From Candidatus Mediterraneibacter quadrami (GTDB lineage Bacteria; Bacillota; Clostridia; Lachnospirales; Lachnospiraceae): 61,394 nt of DNA. The notes under the pieces are model-generated. The model saw only the letters and a list, made by a program, of their open reading frames with translations, did not search any database and was not told where the DNA came from. The stretch spans positions 1 through 61,394 of the forward strand of contig DWUU01000008.1 in the NCBI GenBank assembly GCA_019120575.1, written 5' to 3'. Both the position numbers and the translations under genes were made by a program. How positions within the stretch are numbered: position 1 is the first letter of the stretch; each line of letters begins with the position of its first letter. Shown here one piece after another: positions 44,040 to 60,369 of this stretch.

Positions 44040-45491
44040 TTGAGGTACGCAGACGCAAATGTAATCAAGATCAAACATGCGGTTCTGGAGGAAGTTGCCA
44101 GACTGGCTTTTGCAGGCGAACTGGAAGAGCGCAAGGACGAGATCGCATTCAAGCTGATTCCCGGACCGACTCCGCAGTTCCGCTGCTGTATCTACAAAGA
44201 GCGGGAGATCATCCGGCAGCGTGTCCGCCTGGCGGAAGGCAAAGCGCCGGGAACAACAGACGACGGCAATATTATCCAGGTCATCAGTTCGGCCTGCGAG
44301 GACTGTCCGATCTCCAGCTACACCGTGACAGAGAACTGCCAGAACTGTCTGGGCAAGGCCTGCATTAACGCCTGCCATTTCGGCGCGATCGAAGCGGGAC
44401 GTCACCGCTCACACATCGATCCGTCAAAGTGCAAGGAGTGCGGCAAGTGTGCGGAGGCCTGTCCGTACAACGCCATCGCGCATCTTCAGAGACCGTGCAA
44501 GTTCAGCTGCCCGGTAGACGCCATCTCATATGATGAGTACGGCATTTCCGTAATAGATGAAGAGAAATGTATCCGCTGCGGCAAATGCATCCACAGCTGT
44601 CCGTTCGGAGCCATCGGTTCCAAGACCTGGATCGTGGATGTGATCAATGCGATCAACGCAGGAAAACACGTATATGCGATGCTGGCTCCGGCTACGGAGG
44701 GACAGTTCGGACCGGACATCACCATGGCCAGCTGGCGGAAAGCCATGAAAGAACTGGGCTTCACAGAATTCGTTGAAGTCGGGCTCGGCGGCGACCTTAC
44801 GGCCAAGTACGAGGCGGAAGAGTGGCGCGAAGCCTATGAAAAGGGAGAGAAGAAAGTTACATCCTGCTGTCCGGGATTCGTAAATATGGTGCGCAGACAC
44901 TATCCGGAACTGAACGACCGCGTCTCCACGACCGTTTCTCCGATGTGTGCGGTTTCCCGCATGATCAAGGCGAAAGATCCAGAAGCGGTCACCGTATTCA
45001 TCGGACCATGCCTTGCAAAGAAATCCGAGATCGTGGACCAGAAGATCGAGGGCAACGCTGATTATGCCATGACCTACAGTGAGATCCGTGCAATGATGCG
45101 TGCAAAGGGCGTTACGCTTGAGCCGGTGGAAAACACGTACCAGGAGGCGTCCGTATTCGGCAAGCGGTTCGGCAACTCCGGCGGTGTTGCGGCGGCTGTA
45201 CAGCAGAGCCTGAAAGAATCCGGAAATGATGTGGACGTGAAGGTGTTCAAGGCAAACGGCGCGGCAGAGTGCAAGAAGGCGCTCCTGCTCATGAAAGTCG
45301 GACGGCTTCCGGAAGATTTCATCGAGGGTATGGCGTGCGACGGCGGATGCGTCGGCGGACCGAGCTCCTTCAAGGATCAGAACCTGGCGAAGAAGTCAAG
45401 AGACGCGCTGATCAAAGAGGCGGATGACAGAGGCATCTACAAGAACCTGAGCAACTACGACGAGGATTCCTTCTCCATGCACAGAGAATAA
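44040..45491 (+). CDS. Monomeric [FeFe] hydrogenase (group B-like) with N-terminal 4Fe-4S domains
   Basis: A 483-residue ferredoxin-linked hydrogenase. The N-terminal half holds several cysteine clusters (CEDCPISSY, CLGKACINACHFGAI, CKECGKCAEACPYNAI, CIRCGKCIHSCPFGAI). The H-cluster motifs follow: TSCCPGFVN (L1), GPCLAKKSE (L2) and GMACDGGCVGGPSS (L3). L1 has Phe where the common form has Trp and L2 has Gly for Met, which points to the group B branch. The frame has a stop just upstream, so the start must be TTG 44040, nine bases after GGAGG. Maturation genes are not in the window. Confidence 0.88.
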   Translation: MRYADANVIKIKHAVLEEVARLAFAGELEERKDEIAFKLIPGPTPQFRCCIYKEREIIRQRVRLAEGKAPGTTDDGNIIQVISSACEDCPISSYTVTENCQNCLGKACINACHFGAIEAGRHRSHIDPSKCKECGKCAEACPYNAIAHLQRPCKFSCPVDAISYDEYGISVIDEEKCIRCGKCIHSCPFGAIGSKTWIVDVINAINAGKHVYAMLAPATEGQFGPDITMASWRKAMKELGFTEFVEVGLGGDLTAKYEAEEWREAYEKGEKKVTSCCPGFVNMVRRHYPELNDRVSTTVSPMCAVSRMIKAKDPEAVTVFIGPCLAKKSEIVDQKIEGNADYAMTYSEIRAMMRAKGVTLEPVENTYQEASVFGKRFGNSGGVAAAVQQSLKESGNDVDVKVFKANGAAECKKALLLMKVGRLPEDFIEGMACDGGCVGGPSSFKDQNLAKKSRDALIKEADDRGIYKNLSNYDEDSFSMHRE

Positions 45492-50257: not shown

Positions 50258-50359
50258 GGTAAAAGGGAGTAACTGGCGCTTATGACGTAAGCGTTTGCGA
50301 TGTCGTCAGTACGACGGTTTATCCGTCCGTATCGTGATTAAACAGTGAGACTTTTATTG
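50258..50359 (+). ncRNA. yybP-ykoY (Mn2+) riboswitch aptamer
   Basis: The leader begins AAAAGGGAGTAAC (from 50261) and ends CAGTGAGACTTTTATTG (to 50359), resembling the conserved 5' GGGGAGTAG and 3' GCGAGACC-TTT ends of the yybP-ykoY class. AAAAG at 50261 can pair with CTTTT at 50351 to form P1. Inside are hairpins CGCTTA/TAAGCG (50277 on), GTCGT/ACGAC and GACGG/CCGTC. Members of this class bind Mn2+ and often sit before P-type ATPases, as here. The call is by eye, without a covariance model. Confidence 0.72.
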
Positions 50360-50396
50360 TACATAAAAATGTTGTGCAATAGAAGTCTCATTTTTT
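50346..50396 (+). terminator. Riboswitch expression-platform terminator
   Basis: TGAGACTT plus TATTG (50346-50359) pairs with CAATA plus AAGTCTCA (50377-50390) in a 14-bp stem with an inner ACAT/ATGT helix, followed by six T (50391-50396). The left arm is the same sequence as the 3' strand of aptamer stem P1, so the two structures exclude each other. Metal binding should block the terminator and turn the gene on. Confidence 0.8.
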
Positions 50397-50428
50397 ATTG
50401 CACCAGACACTTTGCAGGAGGAGAAGAG

Positions 50429-53047
50429 ATGAAACAGTATTATCAATTATCCGGTGAAGAGACGATCATGAAGATCAACGGTTCCCTGGAACCGCTCACC
50501 GAAGAACAGGTAATGGAACATCAGGAAAAGTACGGCCCCAACGAACTGGTGGAAGGGAAGAAGAAGACCGTTCTTCAGATCTTCCTTGAGCAGTACAAAG
50601 ACTTCCTGGTCATTATCCTGATCATTGCAGCGATCGCATCCGGATTCATGGGCGACGTGGAAAGCGCCCTCGTCATCCTGATCGTTATCACGATGAATGC
50701 GATCCTGGGTACCGTACAGACGGTGAAAGCGGAGCAGTCGCTGGCCAGTCTGAAGAAATTGTCCGGCCCGGAAGCCAAGGTGCTCCGGTGCGGAAATGTG
50801 GTACAGATCCCGTCGTCAGAAGTAACGGTCGGAGACATCGTGATGCTGGACGCAGGCGATTATATCCCGGCGGACGGACGTCTGACCGAATGTGCAAGCC
50901 TGAAAGTGGATGAGAGCGCACTGACGGGTGAAAGCCTCGGTGTTGAGAAGACGACCGAAGTGATTAAAGAAGACGAAGTGCCTCTTGGCGACCGGCTGAA
51001 CATGGTTTACTCCGGCAGCTTTGTCACATACGGGCGCGGCGCCTTTGTCGTAACCGGCATCGGTATGGAGACCGAGGTCGGCAAGATCGCAAGCCTGCTG
51101 AAAACGACGTCTGAGAAGCGGACGCCGCTGCAGATCAACCTGGATCAGTTCGGACAGAAACTGTCCATCCTTATCCTCGTATTCTGTGCGATCCTATTCG
51201 GCATCAGCATTTTCAGGGGCGACAATATCGGAGACGCCTTCCTTTTCGCAGTAGCCCTCGCGGTAGCGGCGATCCCGGAAGCCCTGAGCTCCATTGTAAC
51301 CATCGTTCTTTCCTTCGGTACGCAGAAGATGGCCAGGGAGCACGCCATCATGCGTAAGCTTCAGGCTGTGGAAGGACTGGGAAGCGTTTCCGTCATCTGT
51401 TCGGACAAGACAGGCACCCTGACCCAGAACAAGATGACCGTAGAAGATTATTATGTAGATGACAAATGTATCAAAGCGGCGGATGTGGATATTAATGATC
51501 CGTCCCAGAGCCGCCTGCTGATCAGCAGTATGCTCTGCAATGACTCGAAGAATACGGACGGCGTGGAGATCGGCGACCCGACCGAGACCGCGCTGATCAA
51601 TCTCGGAAGCCGCCTGGGGCTTGATCCCGAGGAGGTGCGCCGGAAATATCCGCGCGAGAGCGAGAACCCGTTCGACAGCGACCGGAAGCTCATGTCCACC
51701 AAGCACACCATGGAAGGCATCCCGACCATGCTTATCAAGGGTGCGGTAGACGTGCTGCTTGACCGGATGACGCTGATCCAGATCGGCAGCGAGATCCGTC
51801 CCCTTACGGCGGACGACCGGAAGAAGATCGAAGACCAGAACCAGCGGTTCTCAAGAGAGGGCCTGCGTGTCCTGGCGTTCGGCTACAAAGTTGTATCCGA
51901 CGAAGAAGAACTTACGCTGGATGACGAGTATGACCTGATCTTCACCGGTCTGATCGCCATGATGGATCCGCCGCGTGAAGAGTCAAAAGCAGCGGTTGCG
52001 GAATGTAAGCGCGCGGGCATCCGTCCGATTATGATCACCGGCGACCACAAAGTCACAGCCGCGGCCATCGCAAAACGGATCGGCATCCTGGAAAATGAAT
52101 CCGAAGCCTGCGAGGGCGCAGAGATCGACAAGATGTCCGATGAAGAACTTAAAAGTTTCGTGGAAGGCATTTCCGTCTATGCGCGTGTATCACCGGAACA
52201 TAAGATCCGCATCGTGCGTGCATGGCAGGACAAGGGGAATATCGTATCCATGACCGGCGACGGCGTCAACGATGCACCGGCTCTGAAGCAGGCGGACATC
52301 GGTGTAGCCATGGGCATCACCGGCAGCGAGGTATCCAAAGACGCGGCGGCGATGGTCCTGACGGACGACAATTTTGCCACCATCGTAAAGGCCGTGGAAA
52401 ACGGAAGAAATATTTACCGCAATATCAAGGCGTCCATCCAGTTCCTGCTGTCCGGCAACTTCGGCGCGATCCTGGCGGTGCTCTATGCATCCATCATGGC
52501 GCTGCCCGTGCCGTTCGCACCGGTGCACCTGCTGTTTATCAATCTGCTGACCGACAGTCTCCCGGCGATCGCTCTGGGACTTGAGCCGGGCTCAAAAGAC
52601 GTGATGAATGAGAAACCCCGTCCGATGAACGAATCGATCCTGACAAGAGACTTCCTCTTCAAGATCGGTACGGAAGGCCTTTCCATCGCCGTTACGACGA
52701 TGATCGCATTTATGATCGGCTACCACGGGAACAACGCGCTCCTCGGAAGCACCATGGCATTTGCAACACTCTGTTCCGCACGTCTGTTCCACGGATTTAA
52801 CTGTAAATCCGACAGACCGGTTGTATTCACACGCAAAGTCGTGAACAACAAGTTCCTGATCGGGGCATTCGTGATCGGCATCGTGCTGATCACCGCGGTT
52901 GTAATGGTACCGGGACTTCACAACGTATTCAAAGTCCAGACGCTGACGCTGACACAGCTGTTCACCGTATACGGTCTGGCGGCGGCGAATATCCCGATCA
53001 TCCAGATTATGAAAGGGATCCGCCTGTTACTGAAGAAGAATAAATAA
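50429..53047 (+). CDS. P2A-type cation-transporting ATPase (Ca2+/Mn2+ class)
   Basis: An 872-residue membrane pump. The P-type motifs are visible: TGES in ALTGESLGVEK, the phosphorylation site SDKTGTLTQNK (about residue 340), and TGDGVNDAPALKQ. Helix M4 has IPEALSSIVTIVLS and M6 has NLLTDSLPAIALG, the ion-binding sequences of calcium or manganese pumps such as Listeria LMCA1. The N-terminal cation-ATPase domain is normal. ATG 50429 follows GCAGGAGGAG; in-frame codons upstream cross the terminator. The Mn2+-type riboswitch in front suggests manganese export. Confidence 0.93.
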   Translation: MKQYYQLSGEETIMKINGSLEPLTEEQVMEHQEKYGPNELVEGKKKTVLQIFLEQYKDFLVIILIIAAIASGFMGDVESALVILIVITMNAILGTVQTVKAEQSLASLKKLSGPEAKVLRCGNVVQIPSSEVTVGDIVMLDAGDYIPADGRLTECASLKVDESALTGESLGVEKTTEVIKEDEVPLGDRLNMVYSGSFVTYGRGAFVVTGIGMETEVGKIASLLKTTSEKRTPLQINLDQFGQKLSILILVFCAILFGISIFRGDNIGDAFLFAVALAVAAIPEALSSIVTIVLSFGTQKMAREHAIMRKLQAVEGLGSVSVICSDKTGTLTQNKMTVEDYYVDDKCIKAADVDINDPSQSRLLISSMLCNDSKNTDGVEIGDPTETALINLGSRLGLDPEEVRRKYPRESENPFDSDRKLMSTKHTMEGIPTMLIKGAVDVLLDRMTLIQIGSEIRPLTADDRKKIEDQNQRFSREGLRVLAFGYKVVSDEEELTLDDEYDLIFTGLIAMMDPPREESKAAVAECKRAGIRPIMITGDHKVTAAAIAKRIGILENESEACEGAEIDKMSDEELKSFVEGISVYARVSPEHKIRIVRAWQDKGNIVSMTGDGVNDAPALKQADIGVAMGITGSEVSKDAAAMVLTDDNFATIVKAVENGRNIYRNIKASIQFLLSGNFGAILAVLYASIMALPVPFAPVHLLFINLLTDSLPAIALGLEPGSKDVMNEKPRPMNESILTRDFLFKIGTEGLSIAVTTMIAFMIGYHGNNALLGSTMAFATLCSARLFHGFNCKSDRPVVFTRKVVNNKFLIGAFVIGIVLITAVVMVPGLHNVFKVQTLTLTQLFTVYGLAAANIPIIQIMKGIRLLLKKNK

Positions 53048-53076
53048 GATATTACGAAAGAAATCGAAGGGATACT

Positions 53077-55506
53077 ATGCCAGGAAGAAAAGCAGTACAG
53101 ACAGAGGAGAAGAGAGACAGAAGGATACCGACCACCCGGTATGAACCGGACTACAGGACCGGCCTGACGGCCCAGCAGGTGCAGGAACACTACCTGCACG
53201 GCTGGGTCAACCGTTCCGTGGAACCGCCGTCCAGGACGACGAAAGAGATCATCCATGAAAATGTCTTCACTTACTTTAACCTTATATTTACCATCCTTGC
53301 CATCCTGCTTATCCTGGTAGGATCCTGGAGAGACCTTGCTTTCATGATTGTCATTGTGGCCAACACGCTGATCGGAATCGTCCAGGAGATCCGGGCGAAG
53401 CAGGTGCTGGACAAGATGACCATGCTGAACGCGCCCCATGCGGCTGTTGTCCGGGACGGGAAGCGTTCTGTCATCGACGCCGAGAAGCTGGTGCTTGATG
53501 ACATCGTCATCTTCAAAGCCGGGAACCAGGTGTGCGCGGATGCGGTCGTGAGCGCCGGCGAAGTTCAGGTAAACGAATCCCTCCTGACCGGTGAATCGGA
53601 CGAGATCACCAAGCGTAAAGGGGACCGGCTCATGTCCGGAAGCTTTATTGTGTCCGGCCAGTGCCATGCAAGGCTGGACCGGGTGGGCGCGGACTCCTAT
53701 ATCTCGAAACTGACGCTCCAGGCGAAAGAGATGCAGTCCGGCGAACAGTCGGAAATGATCCGATCTCTGGATAAGCTGGTTAAATGCGTGGGCATCGCGA
53801 TCATCCCGATCGGCATCATCCTGTTCTGCCAGGCGTTTTTCTTCCAGCATGACAATTTCCGGGAGAGCATTACATCCATGGTCGCCGCGGTGATTGGCAT
53901 GATCCCGGAGGGGCTCTACCTGCTCGCCAGTGTGGCCCTTGCGGTGAGCGCAGTCCGGCTGGCGCAGAAGAAGGTTCTGCTCCACGATATGAAATGTATC
54001 GAGACACTGGCCCGGGTGGATGTGCTGTGTGTGGATAAAACCGGCACCATCACGGAGAATACCATGAAGGTGCAGGATGTGATCGAGACAGATGAATATG
54101 ATAAAGAATCCATGGAACCGCTCCGGACCCTGATCGGCGATTTTGCCGCAGCCATGACAAAAGACAACATTACCATGGCCGCCATTAAAGAATACTTCAC
54201 AACCGCTTCGGGGAAGAAGCCGGTATCCATGACCGGATTCTCATCCGCCACAAAGTACAGCAGCGTCACGTTTGAAGACGGCGCTTATGTACTGGGGGCG
54301 CCGGAGTTCGTCCTGAAGGACCGGTTCGATGAATATGAAGAGGAGATCACGGAACACGCCTCCACCGGAGCCCGCGTGCTTGTCTTCGGGACATATGACG
54401 GGAAGATCGACGGGAAGCCGCTGGACCACGCGGTCACACCGCTCGGATTCGTGCTTCTGGCAAACCCGATCCGCGAGGCCGCGAAAGAGACTTTTGAATA
54501 TTTCGCGGAACAGGGCGTGGAAGTGAAAGTTATATCCGGAGATAATCCGGTAACCGTATCGAAAGTGGCGAAACAGGCCGGCATCAGAAATGCGGACCGA
54601 TATGTGGACGCCTCCGAACTGGACGATGAGAACGCGCTGGCAGAGGCGCTGCTCCACAACACCGTATTCGGCCGCGTTACGCCCAATCAGAAACGGAGGT
54701 TTGTCCGGATCCTGAAAAACGCCGGACACACGGTAGCCATGACCGGAGACGGCGTCAATGACGTCCTGGCGCTCAAGGATGCGGACTGCAGCATCGCCAT
54801 GGCATCAGGAAGCGAGGCCGCGGCGCAGGCGTCCCAGCTTGTGCTCCTGGAATCGGATTTCTCGTGTATGCCTGAGGTCGTGCTGGAAGGAAGAAGAGTG
54901 GTCAACAACATCCAGCGCTCCGCGACGCTTTTCCTTGTGAAGAATATCTTTTCCTTCCTGCTGAGTCTGATCTCCGTAGTATTTATGTTTACTTACCCGC
55001 TGGAACCGTCCCAGATCTCACTGATCAGTATGTTTACGATCGGCATTCCGGCCTTCTTCCTGGCCATGGAGTCCAATAAGAACCTGATCCGGGGACATTT
55101 CCTGACGAACGTATTCCTGAAAGCCCTCCCGGCGGCCATCACGGATGCACTTGCCGTGGGTGCCCTGGTGATCTTCGGAAGAACATTCGGCGTAAATTCA
55201 ACGGACATCTCGACGGCAGCGACCATGCTGCTGGCCATCGTCGGATTCATGATCCTCTACAAGATCAGCGCGCCGATGAACAAGTTCCGCGCCGCCATCC
55301 TGGGCGGATGCATCCTGGGACTTCTGTTCTGCAGCATTTATCTGAACGACCTGTTTGCTATTACGGGAATGACGATGGAATGCATTATGCTGTTTGTTGT
55401 ATTTGCCATCGCTACAGAACCGGTCCTGCGGTATCTGACGCTGCTGGTCGGAAAACTCCGGTTCTATTATCAGAGACTCCGGGGAAGGACTCCGGAAGAA
55501 GAATAG
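53077..55506 (+). CDS. Second P-type cation ATPase, CtpE-like
   Basis: An 809-residue pump 29 bases after the first. Motifs: NESLLTGESDEI, CVDKTGTITENTM, and MTGDGVNDVLALKDAD. Helix M4 has GMIPEGLYLLASVAL, which is PEGL rather than PEAL, and the nucleotide-binding domain is short. Both traits recall the mycobacterial CtpE group of Ca2+ transporters, not the pump before it. There is no metal-binding N-terminal domain. It is probably co-transcribed with the first ATPase under the same riboswitch. Ion specificity is inferred. Confidence 0.85.
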   Translation: MPGRKAVQTEEKRDRRIPTTRYEPDYRTGLTAQQVQEHYLHGWVNRSVEPPSRTTKEIIHENVFTYFNLIFTILAILLILVGSWRDLAFMIVIVANTLIGIVQEIRAKQVLDKMTMLNAPHAAVVRDGKRSVIDAEKLVLDDIVIFKAGNQVCADAVVSAGEVQVNESLLTGESDEITKRKGDRLMSGSFIVSGQCHARLDRVGADSYISKLTLQAKEMQSGEQSEMIRSLDKLVKCVGIAIIPIGIILFCQAFFFQHDNFRESITSMVAAVIGMIPEGLYLLASVALAVSAVRLAQKKVLLHDMKCIETLARVDVLCVDKTGTITENTMKVQDVIETDEYDKESMEPLRTLIGDFAAAMTKDNITMAAIKEYFTTASGKKPVSMTGFSSATKYSSVTFEDGAYVLGAPEFVLKDRFDEYEEEITEHASTGARVLVFGTYDGKIDGKPLDHAVTPLGFVLLANPIREAAKETFEYFAEQGVEVKVISGDNPVTVSKVAKQAGIRNADRYVDASELDDENALAEALLHNTVFGRVTPNQKRRFVRILKNAGHTVAMTGDGVNDVLALKDADCSIAMASGSEAAAQASQLVLLESDFSCMPEVVLEGRRVVNNIQRSATLFLVKNIFSFLLSLISVVFMFTYPLEPSQISLISMFTIGIPAFFLAMESNKNLIRGHFLTNVFLKALPAAITDALAVGALVIFGRTFGVNSTDISTAATMLLAIVGFMILYKISAPMNKFRAAILGGCILGLLFCSIYLNDLFAITGMTMECIMLFVVFAIATEPVLRYLTLLVGKLRFYYQRLRGRTPEEE

Positions 55507-55524: not shown

Positions 55525-55573
55525 AAAAAACAAAGCCATGTACGGCGGACAAGCGGTACATGGCTTATTTTTT
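55525..55573. terminator. Bidirectional terminator between the ATPase and fliB
   Basis: AAGCCATGTAC (55533-55543) pairs perfectly with GTACATGGCTT (55556-55566). On the plus strand ATTTTTT follows; on the minus strand the stem is followed by TTTTTTC from 55530 downward. It separates two converging genes and overlaps the last codons of fliB. Confidence 0.85.
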
Positions 55574-56735
55574 ACAGAAGGCGGAGCAGATCTTCAAGCG
55601 GGAATTCTATCTCATCACTGAGCAGATCCTCCATCTGGACTTTGTTGAAATCCGAGTGTTCGATCTCGCGGGAATAGCGGTATGCAGTCCGGAAGAGCTC
55701 CGGTCTGCCGGTCCCTTCGGAATCTGAAATCCACTGCGCGCGAAGAAGCTCCCGGATGAGGATCATACCGGCAAGTGCAAACTTCATCTTGCCGTATGCA
55801 TTATAATTATAGACCGCGCCGCAGAAATAGGTGAACACAAAATAGACCAGGATCTGTTCAGCGGTCTCATCGGAAAACAGGGCGGAAAAGTCCGGATCGG
55901 CTTCTGTGTTATCCGTGCGGCTGCTGTATTCTGTAAGGACCTGTCCGGCTTTGTGGATCTGCGGCTCCCAGTCATCCTGAAGGATTTCAAGCCGGTCCAG
56001 GACCTCTAAGAGCTTCCGAAGCGTCTCCCGGCGTTTCTGTGCGTGATCTTCCTCAGATGCCAGAAGTTCCAGGCGGTTTTCAAACCAGTTCCATACATTT
56101 TCTCCTTTATATCGCTCCAGGAGGCGGTCCGCATCGTAGAGCGCCCCGTGGTCGATCCGCTCCTGAAGATCATGGGCGAATGCAAGGGCGGCCGCCGCGC
56201 GGATATTCACAGGATGCGCGCGGTCCTGCAGGATCTGGAACAGGACTTCCCGGGCGTCCTCAAGCTTTGTAAAGAGAAAGTAATCAAAATCATCATACGC
56301 ATCCGGCTGGGGTTCTCCTTTGTCCGGATCCTCTGCATGAAGGAACCGGACTGGTTCAGGCCTTCCCAGGATAATCTCCGCGGCGGCCGGACAGGAGAGG
56401 GACAGGGAGATCTCGCGCAGCCCCTCGAATTCCTCGATATGGCGGGGATAGGTCCGGCATGTCCGGCAGAATGCCTTCTCACCGCCGCCTTCCAGATACA
56501 GATCGCATAGATCGTCTTCATTAAGAAACGCGCAGCGGCCGCCGTACCGGCGGAAACATTTTCCATCCCAGTCGATCTCATTTCTCAGCCTGTTTTTTAA
56601 CGGCCCTTTTGCCTTCCGGTATTTCTTCAGTGACGCCGGATCGATCTGGATCTGCCAGCCGGCACAGCAGGTGGCCGGACACTGACCGGCGGTGCAGGTA
56701 AATTGTTTATAATAATCAGGTACGGTAAACTGCAT
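55572..56735 (-). CDS. fliB: Flagellin lysine-N-methylase FliB-like protein
   Basis: A 387-residue protein with a cysteine-rich N-terminal half: FTCTAGQCPATCCAGWQI, CAFLNEDDLCDLYLEGG and FCRTCRTYPRH. This is the pattern of the YkgJ/FliB iron-sulfur-type family; Salmonella FliB methylates lysines of flagellin. There is no flagellar gene within the window, so the substrate may be different. ATG at 56735 on the minus strand is followed by MQFTVPDYY. Confidence 0.82.
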   Translation of the reverse strand: MQFTVPDYYKQFTCTAGQCPATCCAGWQIQIDPASLKKYRKAKGPLKNRLRNEIDWDGKCFRRYGGRCAFLNEDDLCDLYLEGGGEKAFCRTCRTYPRHIEEFEGLREISLSLSCPAAAEIILGRPEPVRFLHAEDPDKGEPQPDAYDDFDYFLFTKLEDAREVLFQILQDRAHPVNIRAAAALAFAHDLQERIDHGALYDADRLLERYKGENVWNWFENRLELLASEEDHAQKRRETLRKLLEVLDRLEILQDDWEPQIHKAGQVLTEYSSRTDNTEADPDFSALFSDETAEQILVYFVFTYFCGAVYNYNAYGKMKFALAGMILIRELLRAQWISDSEGTGRPELFRTAYRYSREIEHSDFNKVQMEDLLSDEIEFPLEDLLRLL

Positions 56736-56767: not shown

Positions 56768-56796
56768 ATTATAAAGAGATTCTGTTCATTTTTGAA
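56768..56796 (-). promoter_or_regulatory. Promoter of fliB
   Basis: On the minus strand TTCAAA (56796-56791) and TATAAT (56773-56768) are 17 bases apart. The leader to the start codon at 56735 is about 25 bases. Confidence 0.55.
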
Positions 56797-56826
56797 GATG
56801 AAATTTCCAGGGTTTTCGGGAAAGAC

Positions 56827-56855
56827 TGGTACAGGCAGGAACGTTATGATAAAAT
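56827..56855 (+). promoter_or_regulatory. Promoter of the NifX-SlyD fusion gene
   Basis: TAAAAT at 56850-56855 is preceded by TG at -1 position (extended -10). A poor -35, TGGTAC at 56827-56832, lies 17 bases upstream. It diverges from the fliB promoter. Confidence 0.4.
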
Positions 56856-56893
56856 AGCAGTGCACAAAAATAAAAGAAAGATGAGGATGAAAA

Positions 56894-57757
56894 ATGAAAA
56901 TAGCAGTAACTTATGACAATGGAAATGTCTTTCAGCATTTCGGACGGACAGAGCAGTTTAAGGTTTACGAAGTGGAGGATAACAAAGTCGTATCCAGTGA
57001 AGTGATCGGGTCCAATGGAAGCGGACACGGCGCCCTTGCCGGACTTCTGGCCGGACAGGAGGTGGATGTGCTGATCTGCGGCGGCATCGGCGGCGGGGCA
57101 CAGGCGGCTCTCGCGGAAGCAGGCGTGGAACTGTGCGCCGGTGCAGAGGGAAATACAGACGAAGCAGTGGAAGCATATCTTAGAGGCGAACTGGTATCCA
57201 CAGGCGCCAACTGCGACCATCATCACGAAGAAGGGCACGACTGCGGCGGTCATGATGAGGGACATTCCTGCGGCGGCGGATGCGGAAGCAGCTGCGGTGG
57301 GGGATGCGGTTCTTCCAGACCGGCTTTTGAGGGAAAAAATGTAGGAAAGACATGCCGCGCCCACTACAGGGGAACATTCAATGACGGGACACAGTTTGAT
57401 TCTTCCTATGACCGGGGTGAGCCGCTGGAGTTTGTATGCGGCGCAGGACAGATGATCCTGGGATTTGACAAAGCTGTGGCTGACATGGAAGTCGGCCAGA
57501 CAGTAGATATACACCTGATGCCGGAAGAAGCCTACGGCATGCCTGATCCGGCTGCAGTGTTTACCGTTGAGATCGAACAGCTTCCGGGTTCTGAAGAACT
57601 GCAAGCCGGACAGCAGGTTTATCTGACCAATCAGTTCGGACAGCCTTTCCCGGTCAAAGTGACAGCCAAAGATGAGACAACCATCACATTTGACGCGAAC
57701 CATGAAATGGCCGGGAAAGAACTGAACTTCCGGATCGAGCTTGTTGAAGTAAAATAA
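56894..57757 (+). CDS. Fusion of a NifX/NifB-type cofactor-binding domain, a His/Cys-rich linker and a SlyD-like FKBP prolyl isomerase
   Basis: A 287-residue protein with three parts. Residues 1-100 match the NifX/NafY/NifB C-terminal cofactor-binding domain (KIAVTYDNGNVFQHFGR, ICGGIGGGAQAALAEAG). Residues 101-143 are a linker with six histidines and six cysteines (CDHHHEEGHDC, HSCGGGCGSSC). Residues 145-287 are an FKBP domain with a SlyD-type inserted flap: YRGTFNDGTQFDSS, GAGQMILGFDKA, EEAYGMPDP. SlyD is a metal-binding chaperone that delivers nickel to hydrogenases; NifX-type domains carry Fe-S or FeMo precursors. The frame is unbroken, so this is a single polypeptide. Function is inferred. 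Confidence 0.88.
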   Translation: MKIAVTYDNGNVFQHFGRTEQFKVYEVEDNKVVSSEVIGSNGSGHGALAGLLAGQEVDVLICGGIGGGAQAALAEAGVELCAGAEGNTDEAVEAYLRGELVSTGANCDHHHEEGHDCGGHDEGHSCGGGCGSSCGGGCGSSRPAFEGKNVGKTCRAHYRGTFNDGTQFDSSYDRGEPLEFVCGAGQMILGFDKAVADMEVGQTVDIHLMPEEAYGMPDPAAVFTVEIEQLPGSEELQAGQQVYLTNQFGQPFPVKVTAKDETTITFDANHEMAGKELNFRIELVEVK

Positions 57758-57764
57758 TAATCTC

Positions 57765-59144
57765 TTATTTCAGGAAAAACCGCACCATTTTCTCGTGCAT
57801 TTTCCGGTAGGGCTGATAGCGCATGGGAAGATCGAGCCAGGTCTTTTTATCCACGATGCTCTTATAGTGGGTAAATGTATCAAAGCCGGTCTTTCCATGG
57901 TAAGAGCCCATGCCGCTCTCGCCGAATCCGCCGAATCCCATTTCCGTTGTCGCAAGATGGATAATCGTATCGTTGATGCATCCGCCGCCGAATCCGCACC
58001 GTGCGGTAACTTTTTTCGCCGCCGCTTTGCTGGATGTAAACAGGTAAAGGGCCAGCGGGTGGGGCATGGCGTTGACATTGCGGATCACTTCGTCCAGGCT
58101 GTCAAAGGTGAGGATTGGCATAACCGGTCCGAAGATCTCCTCCTGCATGACAGCGTCTGAAAATGTCACATTATCCATGACCGTCGGTTCGATCCGAAGC
58201 GCATCCCGGTCGGAATTCCCTCCAAAAACTACTTTTTCTTTATCGATCAGTCCCAGAATCCGGTCGAAATGCTTCTCATTGATGATCTTGCCATAGTTCT
58301 TATTATCAAGGAGCTTTTTGCCGAACTGTCTGCGGATCTGTTTCCCGATTTCTTTGATCAGCCGGTCCCGGACGGAGCGGTGGCAGTAGATATAGTCCGG
58401 CGCCACACAGGTCTGGCCGCAGTTCAGATACTTCCCGAACACGATCCGCCTCGCCGCCAGTCTGATATTCGCGGTCTGATCGACAATGCAGGGGCTTTTG
58501 CCGCCCAGTTCAAGCGTCACCGGCGTCAGATGATCCGCGGCGCTTCGCATGACTTCCTTCCCCACAGACTGACTGCCTGTAAAGAAAATATAGTCAAAGT
58601 GCTCGTGCAGAAGGCAGGTGTTTTCCGCCCGCCCGCCGGTCACGACCGACACATACTGAGGCTCAAAGCATTTCGTAAGGATCTGCCGGATCACCTCGCT
58701 CGTGTTTGGAGAATAGGCGCTCGGTTTGACCACGGCCGTATTCCCGGCCGCCAGCGCATCCACGAGCGGGGACAGGGTGAGCATGAACGGGTAATTCCAC
58801 GGGCTCATGATCAGCGTCACACCGTAGGGCGAAGGCTTCTTATAACTTCTTGAATGGAACTGGGCGAGGGGCGTGCGGACCCGTTTCTCCCCGGCGAAAC
58901 GGCGGACATGTTTCAGCATGTAGCTGATCTCCTCCAGCACCAGCCCGGTCTCGCACATATAACTTTCAAATCCGCTTTTCCCCAGGTCTTTCCGCAGTGC
59001 ATCATGGATCTCATTCTCACTGCCGGAGACTGCGTCATAGAGTCTTCGAAGCGCGTCGATCCTGAAGCTGACCGGAAGGGTCGCTCCGGTCTGAAAATAT
59101 TTCCGCTGCGCCGCAACGATGGCATTAATTTCCTGTTCCGTCAT
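57765..59144 (-). CDS. NAD(P)-dependent aldehyde dehydrogenase
   Basis: A 459-residue enzyme of the short, membrane-lacking class 3-like group. Visible motifs: the glutamate in TLELGGKSPCIVD, the catalytic cysteine in NCGQTCVAPDY, the AVVKPSAYSPNTSE segment and the C-terminal GGGCINDTIIHLA. It oxidises fatty or aromatic aldehydes, or runs as part of alcohol formation. It overlaps the end of the broken iron alcohol dehydrogenase by 20 bases, so the two were one operon. Confidence 0.92.
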   Translation of the reverse strand: MTEQEINAIVAAQRKYFQTGATLPVSFRIDALRRLYDAVSGSENEIHDALRKDLGKSGFESYMCETGLVLEEISYMLKHVRRFAGEKRVRTPLAQFHSRSYKKPSPYGVTLIMSPWNYPFMLTLSPLVDALAAGNTAVVKPSAYSPNTSEVIRQILTKCFEPQYVSVVTGGRAENTCLLHEHFDYIFFTGSQSVGKEVMRSAADHLTPVTLELGGKSPCIVDQTANIRLAARRIVFGKYLNCGQTCVAPDYIYCHRSVRDRLIKEIGKQIRRQFGKKLLDNKNYGKIINEKHFDRILGLIDKEKVVFGGNSDRDALRIEPTVMDNVTFSDAVMQEEIFGPVMPILTFDSLDEVIRNVNAMPHPLALYLFTSSKAAAKKVTARCGFGGGCINDTIIHLATTEMGFGGFGESGMGSYHGKTGFDTFTHYKSIVDKKTWLDLPMRYQPYRKMHEKMVRFFLK

Positions 59145-60241
59145 TTTCGTCTTCTCCTTTCATCAGCATGTAATAGAACGGTTCAAGTTCCGATGCGTTC
59201 ATCAGCACCGGCACCGGATAGAGGGGATTGGCTTCTTTGTCTGCATAGTGGGCAAGCTTCGGGATATCGGTCTCCCGGATCTCCGGAATCGTATCCCCGA
59301 TGCCGAACCGTTTCTTCATATCTTTAATGGCCTGAATGAACTGTGCCGCCGCCTCGTCCACGGGCGTATCCGCGTCTGCAACGCCGGCTTCACGGGCCAG
59401 GCGTGCCAGCTTCTTGTGAATGGTTTTCCCGTACGCCTCCAGGATCATGGGAAGAATCACCGCGTTCGCAAGGCCGTGGGGCACGTTGTACTCGCCGCCA
59501 AGGGAATGGGCGATGGCGTGCACATATCCCACATAGGACTTGGTGAAGGCACACCCTGCATAGAAGGAGGCGTGGAGCATATTGCGGCGGGCCTCCACAT
59601 TGGAGCCGTCCGTATAGGCTGTATCAATGTTTTCAAAGATCAGTTTCACGGCCAGCAGCGCGTCCTTTCGCGTTCCATATGTCGTGGAATTCCCGATATA
59701 AGCCTCCACCGCATGGGTCAGCGCGTCCATACCGGTGGTCGCGGTGATAAAGGGCGGAAGACTGAGCGTCACCTTCGGGTCCAGCACCGCATACCGCGGG
59801 ATCAGTGGAAAATCATTGATCGCGTATTTGTAGCGGGTCTCTGCGTCCGTGATCACCGCCGCAAGGGTCGTCTCACTTCCGGTCCCCGCAGTCCATACTG
59901 GACCCGCCGCCGAAGCCGATGATGCAGTCGCAGTCATTTTCCTGATAGAGTTCGATCGCTTCGGATACATTGACGGTCGTCGGATTCGCAACGGTTTTGT
60001 CATAAATACAGAATGGGATATCATTGTCTGCAAGCGCCTTTTCCAGACGGCGGGTAAGTCCCAGGTTCCGGATTCCGGCGTCTGTGATGATCAGCGCTTT
60101 GGTGCATTTTTTCTTCCGGATGACTTCCGGCAGAGACTTCACACTTCCGGTGATCTTCGGTTTACGGTAGGGCAGGAAGGGCAGAGCTATTTTCAGTCCT
60201 GTCTGAAAGGTCCTGCAGTACGCTTTTTTAAGAGGGTTCAT
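59125..60241 (-). pseudogene. Frameshifted iron-containing alcohol dehydrogenase
   Basis: The minus-strand frame from ATG 60241 encodes an Fe-ADH N-terminal domain (RKKKCTKALIITDAGIRNLGL) up to CIIGFGGGSSMDC, then reaches TGA a few codons later, near 59873. The rest of the enzyme continues in another frame from VWTAGTGSETTLAA, with the iron-ligand segments DALTHAVEAY and HAIAHSLGG-YNVPHGLA intact to 59125. Normally 35-40 residues lie between GGGSSMD and TAGTGSE, so about 110 bases are missing at the junction (59885-59900). A deletion at a short GACTGCG repeat or an assembly error could explain it. GAAAGGATC precedes ATG 60241. Confidence 0.85.
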
Positions 60242-60369
60242 GATAACAGATCCTTTCTTTCGTAAATATTGCATGTAATCAGAATACATCTGAAAAATCT
60301 TAGCAATTTGAGGCGGGTTTGTCAATAAACACGGCAGGTTATTGTAATTTTAAATTTAGTAAAACGTAA

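Follow-up and report, generated by a model that had tools for sequence, protein, structure and literature searches.

What might a single protein do that joins a domain of the ORP kind to a SlyD-type foldase through a stretch packed with histidine and cysteine? The question is raised by a gene at 56894..57757 (+) of contig DWUU01000008.1 (assembly GCA_019120575.1) from Candidatus Mediterraneibacter quadrami, a member of the Lachnospiraceae; the whole stretch analysed, 61,394 nucleotides long, is called the window below. We posit that the fusion is a soluble SlyD-type metallochaperone with an added ORP-type domain, whose most likely cargo would be Ni(II), a reading to which we give a probability of roughly 40%. 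The flexible His/Cys/Asp/Glu linker, going by its composition, would take up transition-metal ions; the SlyD-type part, going by its fold and conserved residues, would bind an unfolded client through its insert-in-flap and isomerise its prolines; and the ORP-type domain may provide either a further site for metal or metal sulfide or a surface for docking. Together, these parts would hold metal close to a metalloenzyme precursor as it folds. The Ni(II) would be destined for a [NiFe] hydrogenase where one is present, as in the window's own genome, or for urease, with the insertion GTPase HypB or UreG as a possible intermediary. The arrangement amounts to that of Escherichia coli SlyD with the His/Cys tail shifted to a place N-terminal of the foldase and an ORP-type domain added. 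Indeed, passages of three published reports ascribe metal-enzyme roles to relatives of both halves (PMC10653786, PMC7055735, PMC6345978). It is by analogy that we infer that the insert binds a client, that the foldase is an active isomerase and that the linker binds metal; the metal, a cluster in the first domain and the client are guesses.

A metal-type segment between two known domains

The frame runs for 287 codons without a stop, as an earlier note on this DNA had described, and its product matches two Pfam families: Nitro_FeMo-Co over residues 9-96 (75.1 bits, cut-off 26.3) and FKBP_C over residues 150-219 (72.9 bits, cut-off 21.1). Between them lie precisely the histidines (H109-111, H115, H120 and H124) and cysteines (C107, C117, C126, C130, C134 and C138) that the note had listed. 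Profile searches find the same two-family architecture in all 78 aligned members (Nitro_FeMo-Co at E <=0.001), and this, together with a mean His+Cys share of 37% in the linker against 3.8% in the rest of the protein across the 78 members, tells us that the architecture is not a product of chance. The alignment (A2) of these 78 sequences omits, from the 80 loci of a collection scan, L046, which is cut by a contig end, and L067 and L088, which are close to other loci kept. The AlphaFold2 model built on it (mean predicted local distance difference test score, pLDDT, 87.9) contains two confident domains joined by a low-confidence stretch, with pLDDT <50 at residues 110-140, which is probably disordered; at a low predicted template modelling score of 0.50, the model does not fix the mutual placing of the two domains. 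The protein is probably soluble.

Table 1. Coordinates, in the window, of the fusion gene and its parts
Feature	Position	Strand	Basis
Fusion gene, ORP-type/linker/SlyD-type, 287 residues	56894..57757	+	open frame; two Pfam domains over cut-off
N-terminal Nitro_FeMo-Co (Di-Nase) domain, residues 1-106	56894..57211	+	H15, H45 and C62 invariant (n=78)
His/Cys-rich linker, residues 107-141	57212..57316	+	residue positions, alignment, model, composition
SlyD-type FKBP domain, residues 147-287, putative prolyl isomerase with insert-in-flap	57332..57754	+	
Predicted insert-in-flap chaperone part, residues ~217-270	57542..57703	+	alignment to 5i7p; limits estimated

The foldase half bears out the SlyD-type flap proposed in the note. 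Residues 150-287 align to SlyD structures and to chimaeras carrying the SlyD insert, and we therefore take the chaperone insert-in-flap to be present, its limits being our own estimate from the alignment to the FKBP12-IF(SlyD) chimaera 5i7p. Y158, F168, D169, R174, F180, I188 and Y214, all invariant in the 78 sequences, align to Y26, F36, D37, R42, F48, I56 and Y82 of FKBP12, which we take to be its isomerase-site residues; W59 and F46 of FKBP12 correspond to F191 and L178. Like the SlyD proteins of E. coli, Helicobacter pylori and Thermus thermophilus, the fusion has an FKBP fold with an insert-in-flap over residues 147-287 and a flexible segment rich in His, Cys and acidic residues beside the foldase. 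Unlike them, it has no C-terminal metal tail: the chain ends at residue 287, within the FKBP fold, whereas the metal-type segment lies N-terminal to the foldase at residues 107-141 and is itself preceded by the ORP-type domain. The fusion also scores 65 bits against the 174-bit cut-off of the NCBIfam model PRK10737. The C-terminal tail of SlyD is in any case described as variable, and as lacking in the T. thermophilus protein, in a passage of one report (PMC7055735).

The first domain is harder to name. The earlier note had called it NifX-type, which holds for the Pfam family, PF02579, and does not hold for NifX itself, considering that the domain reaches 22.8 bits against the cut-off of 112 of the NifX model TIGR02663. 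Judged by sequence and fold, it is of the ORP/TM1816 kind rather than a true NifX, resembling single-domain ORP/TM1816 proteins: among solved folds ORP and PH0822 tie for the closest, its closest solved sequence is TM1816 (matched chains of 124 and 136 residues), and it scores 79.3 bits against the NCBIfam MrpORP model, whose cut-off is 450, over the C-terminal model positions 265-365 only. TM1816 of Thermotoga maritima is a stand-alone PF02579 protein, which matches domain 1 of the fusion and no more of it. The likeness to ORP, the orange protein, is partial: the sequence match is weak (E 0.0077), the domain is joined to a foldase, and the fusion has no P-loop ATPase, no such family being among its Pfam matches. 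Of the two Di-Nase motifs named for MrpORP by its authors in a passage of their report, CXHFGHCE and CDH (PMC6345978), the first corresponds to FQHFGRTE, with HFG and E kept and both cysteines replaced (F13 and T19), and the closing one to CDHHH, with C107-D108-H109.

Conservation follows these parts. H15, H45, C62, C107 and H111 are invariant in the 78 sequences, H110, C117, C126 and C138 are present in at least 90% of them, and D108 is kept in 64. The linker, taken for composition counts as positions 105-141 in the window protein with the aligned stretch in the others, ranges from 23 to 67 residues; each member has 4-17 His and 3-11 Cys, along with 4-15 acidic residues, 0-1 Lys/Arg and 0-3 residues from among W, F, Y, I, L, V and M. 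That composition is held while length drifts is as expected for a flexible metal-binding segment, and we infer that the linker would bind metal. IssA of Pyrococcus furiosus likewise has a PF02579 domain followed by a disordered tail, although that tail, as a passage on it states, is a cationic Gly/aromatic one that binds thioferrate (PMC5524996), unlike the acidic, His/Cys-rich linker of the fusion.

A patchy family with a close cousin

A survey of 299 family genomes, each from a different genus, found the fusion in at least 49: in 43 as a single match of near full length (58-100% identity, the genome of the window among them) and in six as two matches in one frame, two of which (G008 and G293) were read. 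A stand-alone SlyD-type foldase was found in eight of the 299 and in one genome of another family; because these foldases have neither the ORP-type domain nor the His/Cys segment, we take the metal segment to belong to the fusion. Among the matches listed, none of the eight genomes has the fusion. Of 398 genomes drawn from across the phylum, one outside the family (G656, family f39) carries it among the full-length matches listed. The collection scan returned 564 relatives, of which the best 80 all cover both domains; by record titles these are 46 Lachnospiraceae, 18 without a family name and 16 from other families. Isolates with the fusion include Blautia hansenii, Roseburia inulinivorans DSM 16841 and Coprococcus comes and, outside the Lachnospiraceae, Anaerovibrio lipolyticus DSM 3074, the remaining 15 records outside the family being uncultured or metagenomic by their titles, with binning that could be in doubt.

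Two PF02579 matches occur in the window's own genome, the fusion and a protein with an N-terminal DUF134, the Nitro_FeMo-Co domain and a His/Cys tail (L002 1366-2208, minus strand; G000:C47). The latter shares 56% identity with the fusion over residues 1-141 of the fusion and has a similar tail, and differs from it in its DUF134 front and in lacking FKBP. This protein may bind DNA, has the same type of metal segment and could be a metal- or cluster-sensing regulator. Similar proteins occur in five other genomes of the family (G027, G031, G148, G221 and G111). Their frames, 202-328 residues long and matching domain 1 at 65-74%, were first candidates for further fusions and were rejected as having a DUF134-like front, read by eye and cut short in G221, a His/Cys tail and no FKBP.

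How did the fusion come by so scattered a distribution? On an AlaS tree (FastTree) of 95 genomes its distribution takes 30 changes, where shuffled labels take 31.7 and 156 out of 500 shuffles come out as low, and there is therefore no phylogenetic signal of the fusion at genus level in this sample; it has probably been lost or moved often. Of the 105 genomes searched for AlaS, 56 were non-fusion genomes, hand-picked at rough steps rather than drawn at random. Ten were dropped: G137 and G181 had no match, G066 gave a 298-residue piece, and G054, G060, G128, G190, G207, G236 and G277 had divergent copies (<=52% identity), G128, G207 and G236 being fusion carriers; the shorter pieces of G018, G040, G090, G109, G214 and G226 were kept.

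The simplest history would be that a PF02579 domain with such a tail became attached ahead of a SlyD-type gene that had none. The fusion label needs four changes on the FKBP tree (79 fusions, nine stand-alone copies and one outgroup), with one forced by supported branches, and three, at least two of them forced, on the domain-1 tree; both trees are short and poorly resolved and do not settle the number of fusion events. On the FKBP tree, a branch with weak support places the stand-alone copies L130-L132 inside the fusions, suggesting that they lost the front part secondarily; no remnant of that part was found upstream of them. On the domain-1 tree, the copies of A. lipolyticus DSM 3074 (L105), of G656 (L142) and of a Butyrivibrio bin (L093) form one supported group (99/92), which hints at transfer of the fusion between families.

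Nickel and its rivals as candidate cargo

Nickel is a plausible first guess at the cargo on account of the hydrogenase in the window's own genome and of gene co-occurrence across the family. This genome has an operon for a [NiFe]-type, energy-converting-type hydrogenase adjoining hypB and hypD (L140, G000:C4:87000-104000), with hypA, hypF and hypE nearby by eye; the HypB there has no His-rich N-terminus. The large subunit matches Pfam Complex1_49kDa and NiFeSe_Hases and bears RICGIC and DPCVSC, which we take to be the hydrogenase Cys-pair motifs and which complex I, to our knowledge, does not have. This hydrogenase is a better target candidate than the monomeric [FeFe] hydrogenase at 44040 (group B model TIGR04105). 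As a separate observation, the genome encodes a second HypB-family GTPase (255 bits; L139 9437-10108, G000:C12:28000-45000), which adjoins an 897-residue flavin adenine dinucleotide/Fe-S oxidoreductase (L139 6747-9440), with no hydrogenase genes seen by eye in the 17 kb around it.

Across the 299 genomes, HypB is found in 20/49 with the fusion and 64/250 without (p 0.037), UreG in 10/49 and 8/250 (p 9e-5), and either one in 28/49 and 70/250 (Fisher p 1.9e-4). HypB, CooS and MoaA were counted at model cut-offs; the UreG assignments, in 18 genomes, come from a weaker class of HypB-model matches, and all eight of those opened lie, by eye, in urease operons. The HypB-or-UreG association is present in both strata of FlhA, a non-metal control (9/13 against 41/139, p 0.01; 19/36 against 29/111, p 0.004), and that of MoaA holds in one. 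Passages of two reports also describe the E. coli and H. pylori SlyD proteins as binding nickel through the His/Cys tail and working with HypB (PMC7055735, PMC10653786).

A good deal nonetheless weighs against nickel. MoaA is associated with the fusion about as strongly as the nickel genes (28/49 against 78/250, p 9e-4), HypB or UreG in genomes without MoaA show no association (11/49 against 48/250, p 0.56), nor does CooS, the nickel carbon monoxide dehydrogenase (13/49 against 47/250, p 0.24), and HypB, UreG and CooS are all absent from 19 of the 49 fusion genomes. FlhA is itself negatively associated (13/49 against 139/250, p 2.6e-4; 152 of 155 matching genomes counted, 147 passing the cut-off and the weak G102, G174 and G272 dropped), and gene content alone therefore gives effects of such size. 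A test of 22 independent pairs from the AlaS tree has HypB-or-UreG siding with the fusion in 4.7 pairs and opposing it in 4.6; the corresponding figures are 3.2 and 5.8 for HypB, 0.8 and 5.1 for CooS, 3.3 and 2.2 for UreG, 7.4 and 3.0 for MoaA, and 1.3 and 4.2 for FlhA, with median p of 0.125 to 1. The 49 non-fusion genomes of this test are nickel-rich (29/49 against 70/250), so that it leans against association. The top NCBIfam models of the hydrogenase-type large subunit are NuoD/FpoD-type, all below cut-off, and deletion of slyD in H. pylori, according to a passage on it, left hydrogenase and urease activity unchanged (PMC10653786). The surroundings of the gene are equally unforthcoming: no neighbour is conserved in the 56 readable loci, no Rfam match, metal riboswitches included, was found in 20 loci, and no upstream word stood out from shuffles in 77 loci (best 8-mer in 7/77, maxima of 5-7 over 20 shuffles).

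Neighbours were read at 56 of 81 loci, the other 25, the window's own among them, being excluded because the frame caller either settled on a long frame of the opposite strand or lacked an anchor; besides the fusion and its antisense frame, no gene cluster occurs in more than 9 of the 81. Single neighbours that are presumably metal-related, a CobW-like GTPase (L090), a ZIP-like transporter (L059) and a MobB-like protein (L091), were not used. The comparison bears on the earlier note, which had proposed a chaperone that both holds a metal and folds its client, perhaps for the [FeFe] hydrogenase. The general idea fits the anatomy described above; the client was set aside, given that its only link to the fusion is proximity, 11 kb away in the same window, and that no neighbour recurs in the 56 loci read.

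If not nickel, then what? The fusion could be an Fe-S maturation factor for anaerobes, in which the ORP-type domain, closed by C-D-H, would be the seat of an Fe-S cluster or of iron sulfide; iron would be buffered by the linker, and the SlyD part would keep the apo-protein open during cluster insertion. We regard this as rather doubtful. In its favour, cargo needed by all cells would suit the 19 fusion genomes without HypB, UreG and CooS, and H15-F16-G17, E20 and C107-D108-H109 partly match the MrpORP motifs, with C107 invariant and D108 widely kept. In published work, the MrpORP Di-Nase domain holds a [3Fe-4S] cluster (PMC6345978), IssA of the same Pfam family stores iron sulfide (PMC5524996), and two-hybrid assays find E. 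coli SlyD binding IscU, IscS and SufS, not IscA, SufA, B or C, and H. pylori SlyD binding MisS and MisU (PMC10653786). Yet both cysteines of CXHFGHCE are missing, cluster transfer by the MrpORP domain is itself described as inefficient (PMC6345978), no recurring Fe-S gene was seen beside the fusion in the readable loci, and a universal need fits badly with so patchy a gene. A related idea, which we consider distinctly unlikely, is that of a one-chain cofactor-plus-folding machine: the ORP-type domain would carry a preformed Fe-S or Mo/Cu-S unit, the latter likened to that of ORP, the linker would carry extra metal, and the foldase would insert the unit while folding the client. We know of no description, in either parent family, of cofactor carriage coupled directly to prolyl isomerisation.

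The scatter of the gene, in turn, would befit an accessory stress gene, and a general buffer for surplus Zn, Co, Cu and Ni, with the linker absorbing metal and the foldase rescuing mismetallated or misfolded proteins, would accord with the resemblance of the linker to a non-specific chelator and with the want of a recurring partner in the 56 loci. Such a role seems unlikely to us, as it leaves unexplained a kept ORP-type domain with invariant H15, H45 and C62, and no metal-responsive element was found among the Rfam matches or upstream words described above. Could the protein have no cellular metal role at all, the ORP-type domain and linker only steering client choice or dimerisation? The eight stand-alone foldases tell us that a foldase can work without a metal segment; however, C107, H110, H111, C117, C126 and C138 persist in at least 90% of the 78 sequences despite three-fold variation in length, and we hold this to be very improbable. 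A SlyD-type metallochaperone with nickel as its first-guess cargo is the explanation that we favour.

Neighbouring genes and significance

In the window, the fusion gene sits between a divergent flagellin lysine-methylase gene and a convergent frame that, by eye, encodes an aldehyde dehydrogenase. The methylase is FliB (55572-56735, minus strand; NF038110, 301.8 bits), and FlhA was not found in this genome, which is 94% complete, leaving a FliB methylase without an obvious flagellum. Just upstream, two P-type cation ATPases lie in tandem (50345-55506, plus strand). An iron-type alcohol dehydrogenase (59125-60325, minus strand) is split into two overlapping frames of 302 and 150 residues, a frameshift or assembly error, its counterpart in the related locus L050 being one 457-residue frame. 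On the opposite strand, a frame of 305 residues (56786-57703, minus strand) covers most of the fusion gene and belongs to a cluster of 18 loci; such antisense frames probably come about as a side effect of codon use.

Searches of the literature for the fusion, judged by titles and opening lines and with most subscription journals outside their scope, returned no report of it, although its architecture may be listed in domain-architecture databases. The two halves are each known, as are the two kinds of metal segment; what these searches did not turn up is their combination in a single conserved chain. Metal delivery to hydrogenases, urease and Fe-S enzymes in anaerobic gut bacteria is poorly known, and here two protein types, each tied experimentally elsewhere to metalloenzyme assembly, are found as one conserved chain. 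The fusion is a small, probably soluble protein that cultured species of Blautia, Roseburia and Coprococcus carry, and its cargo and clients are therefore directly testable.
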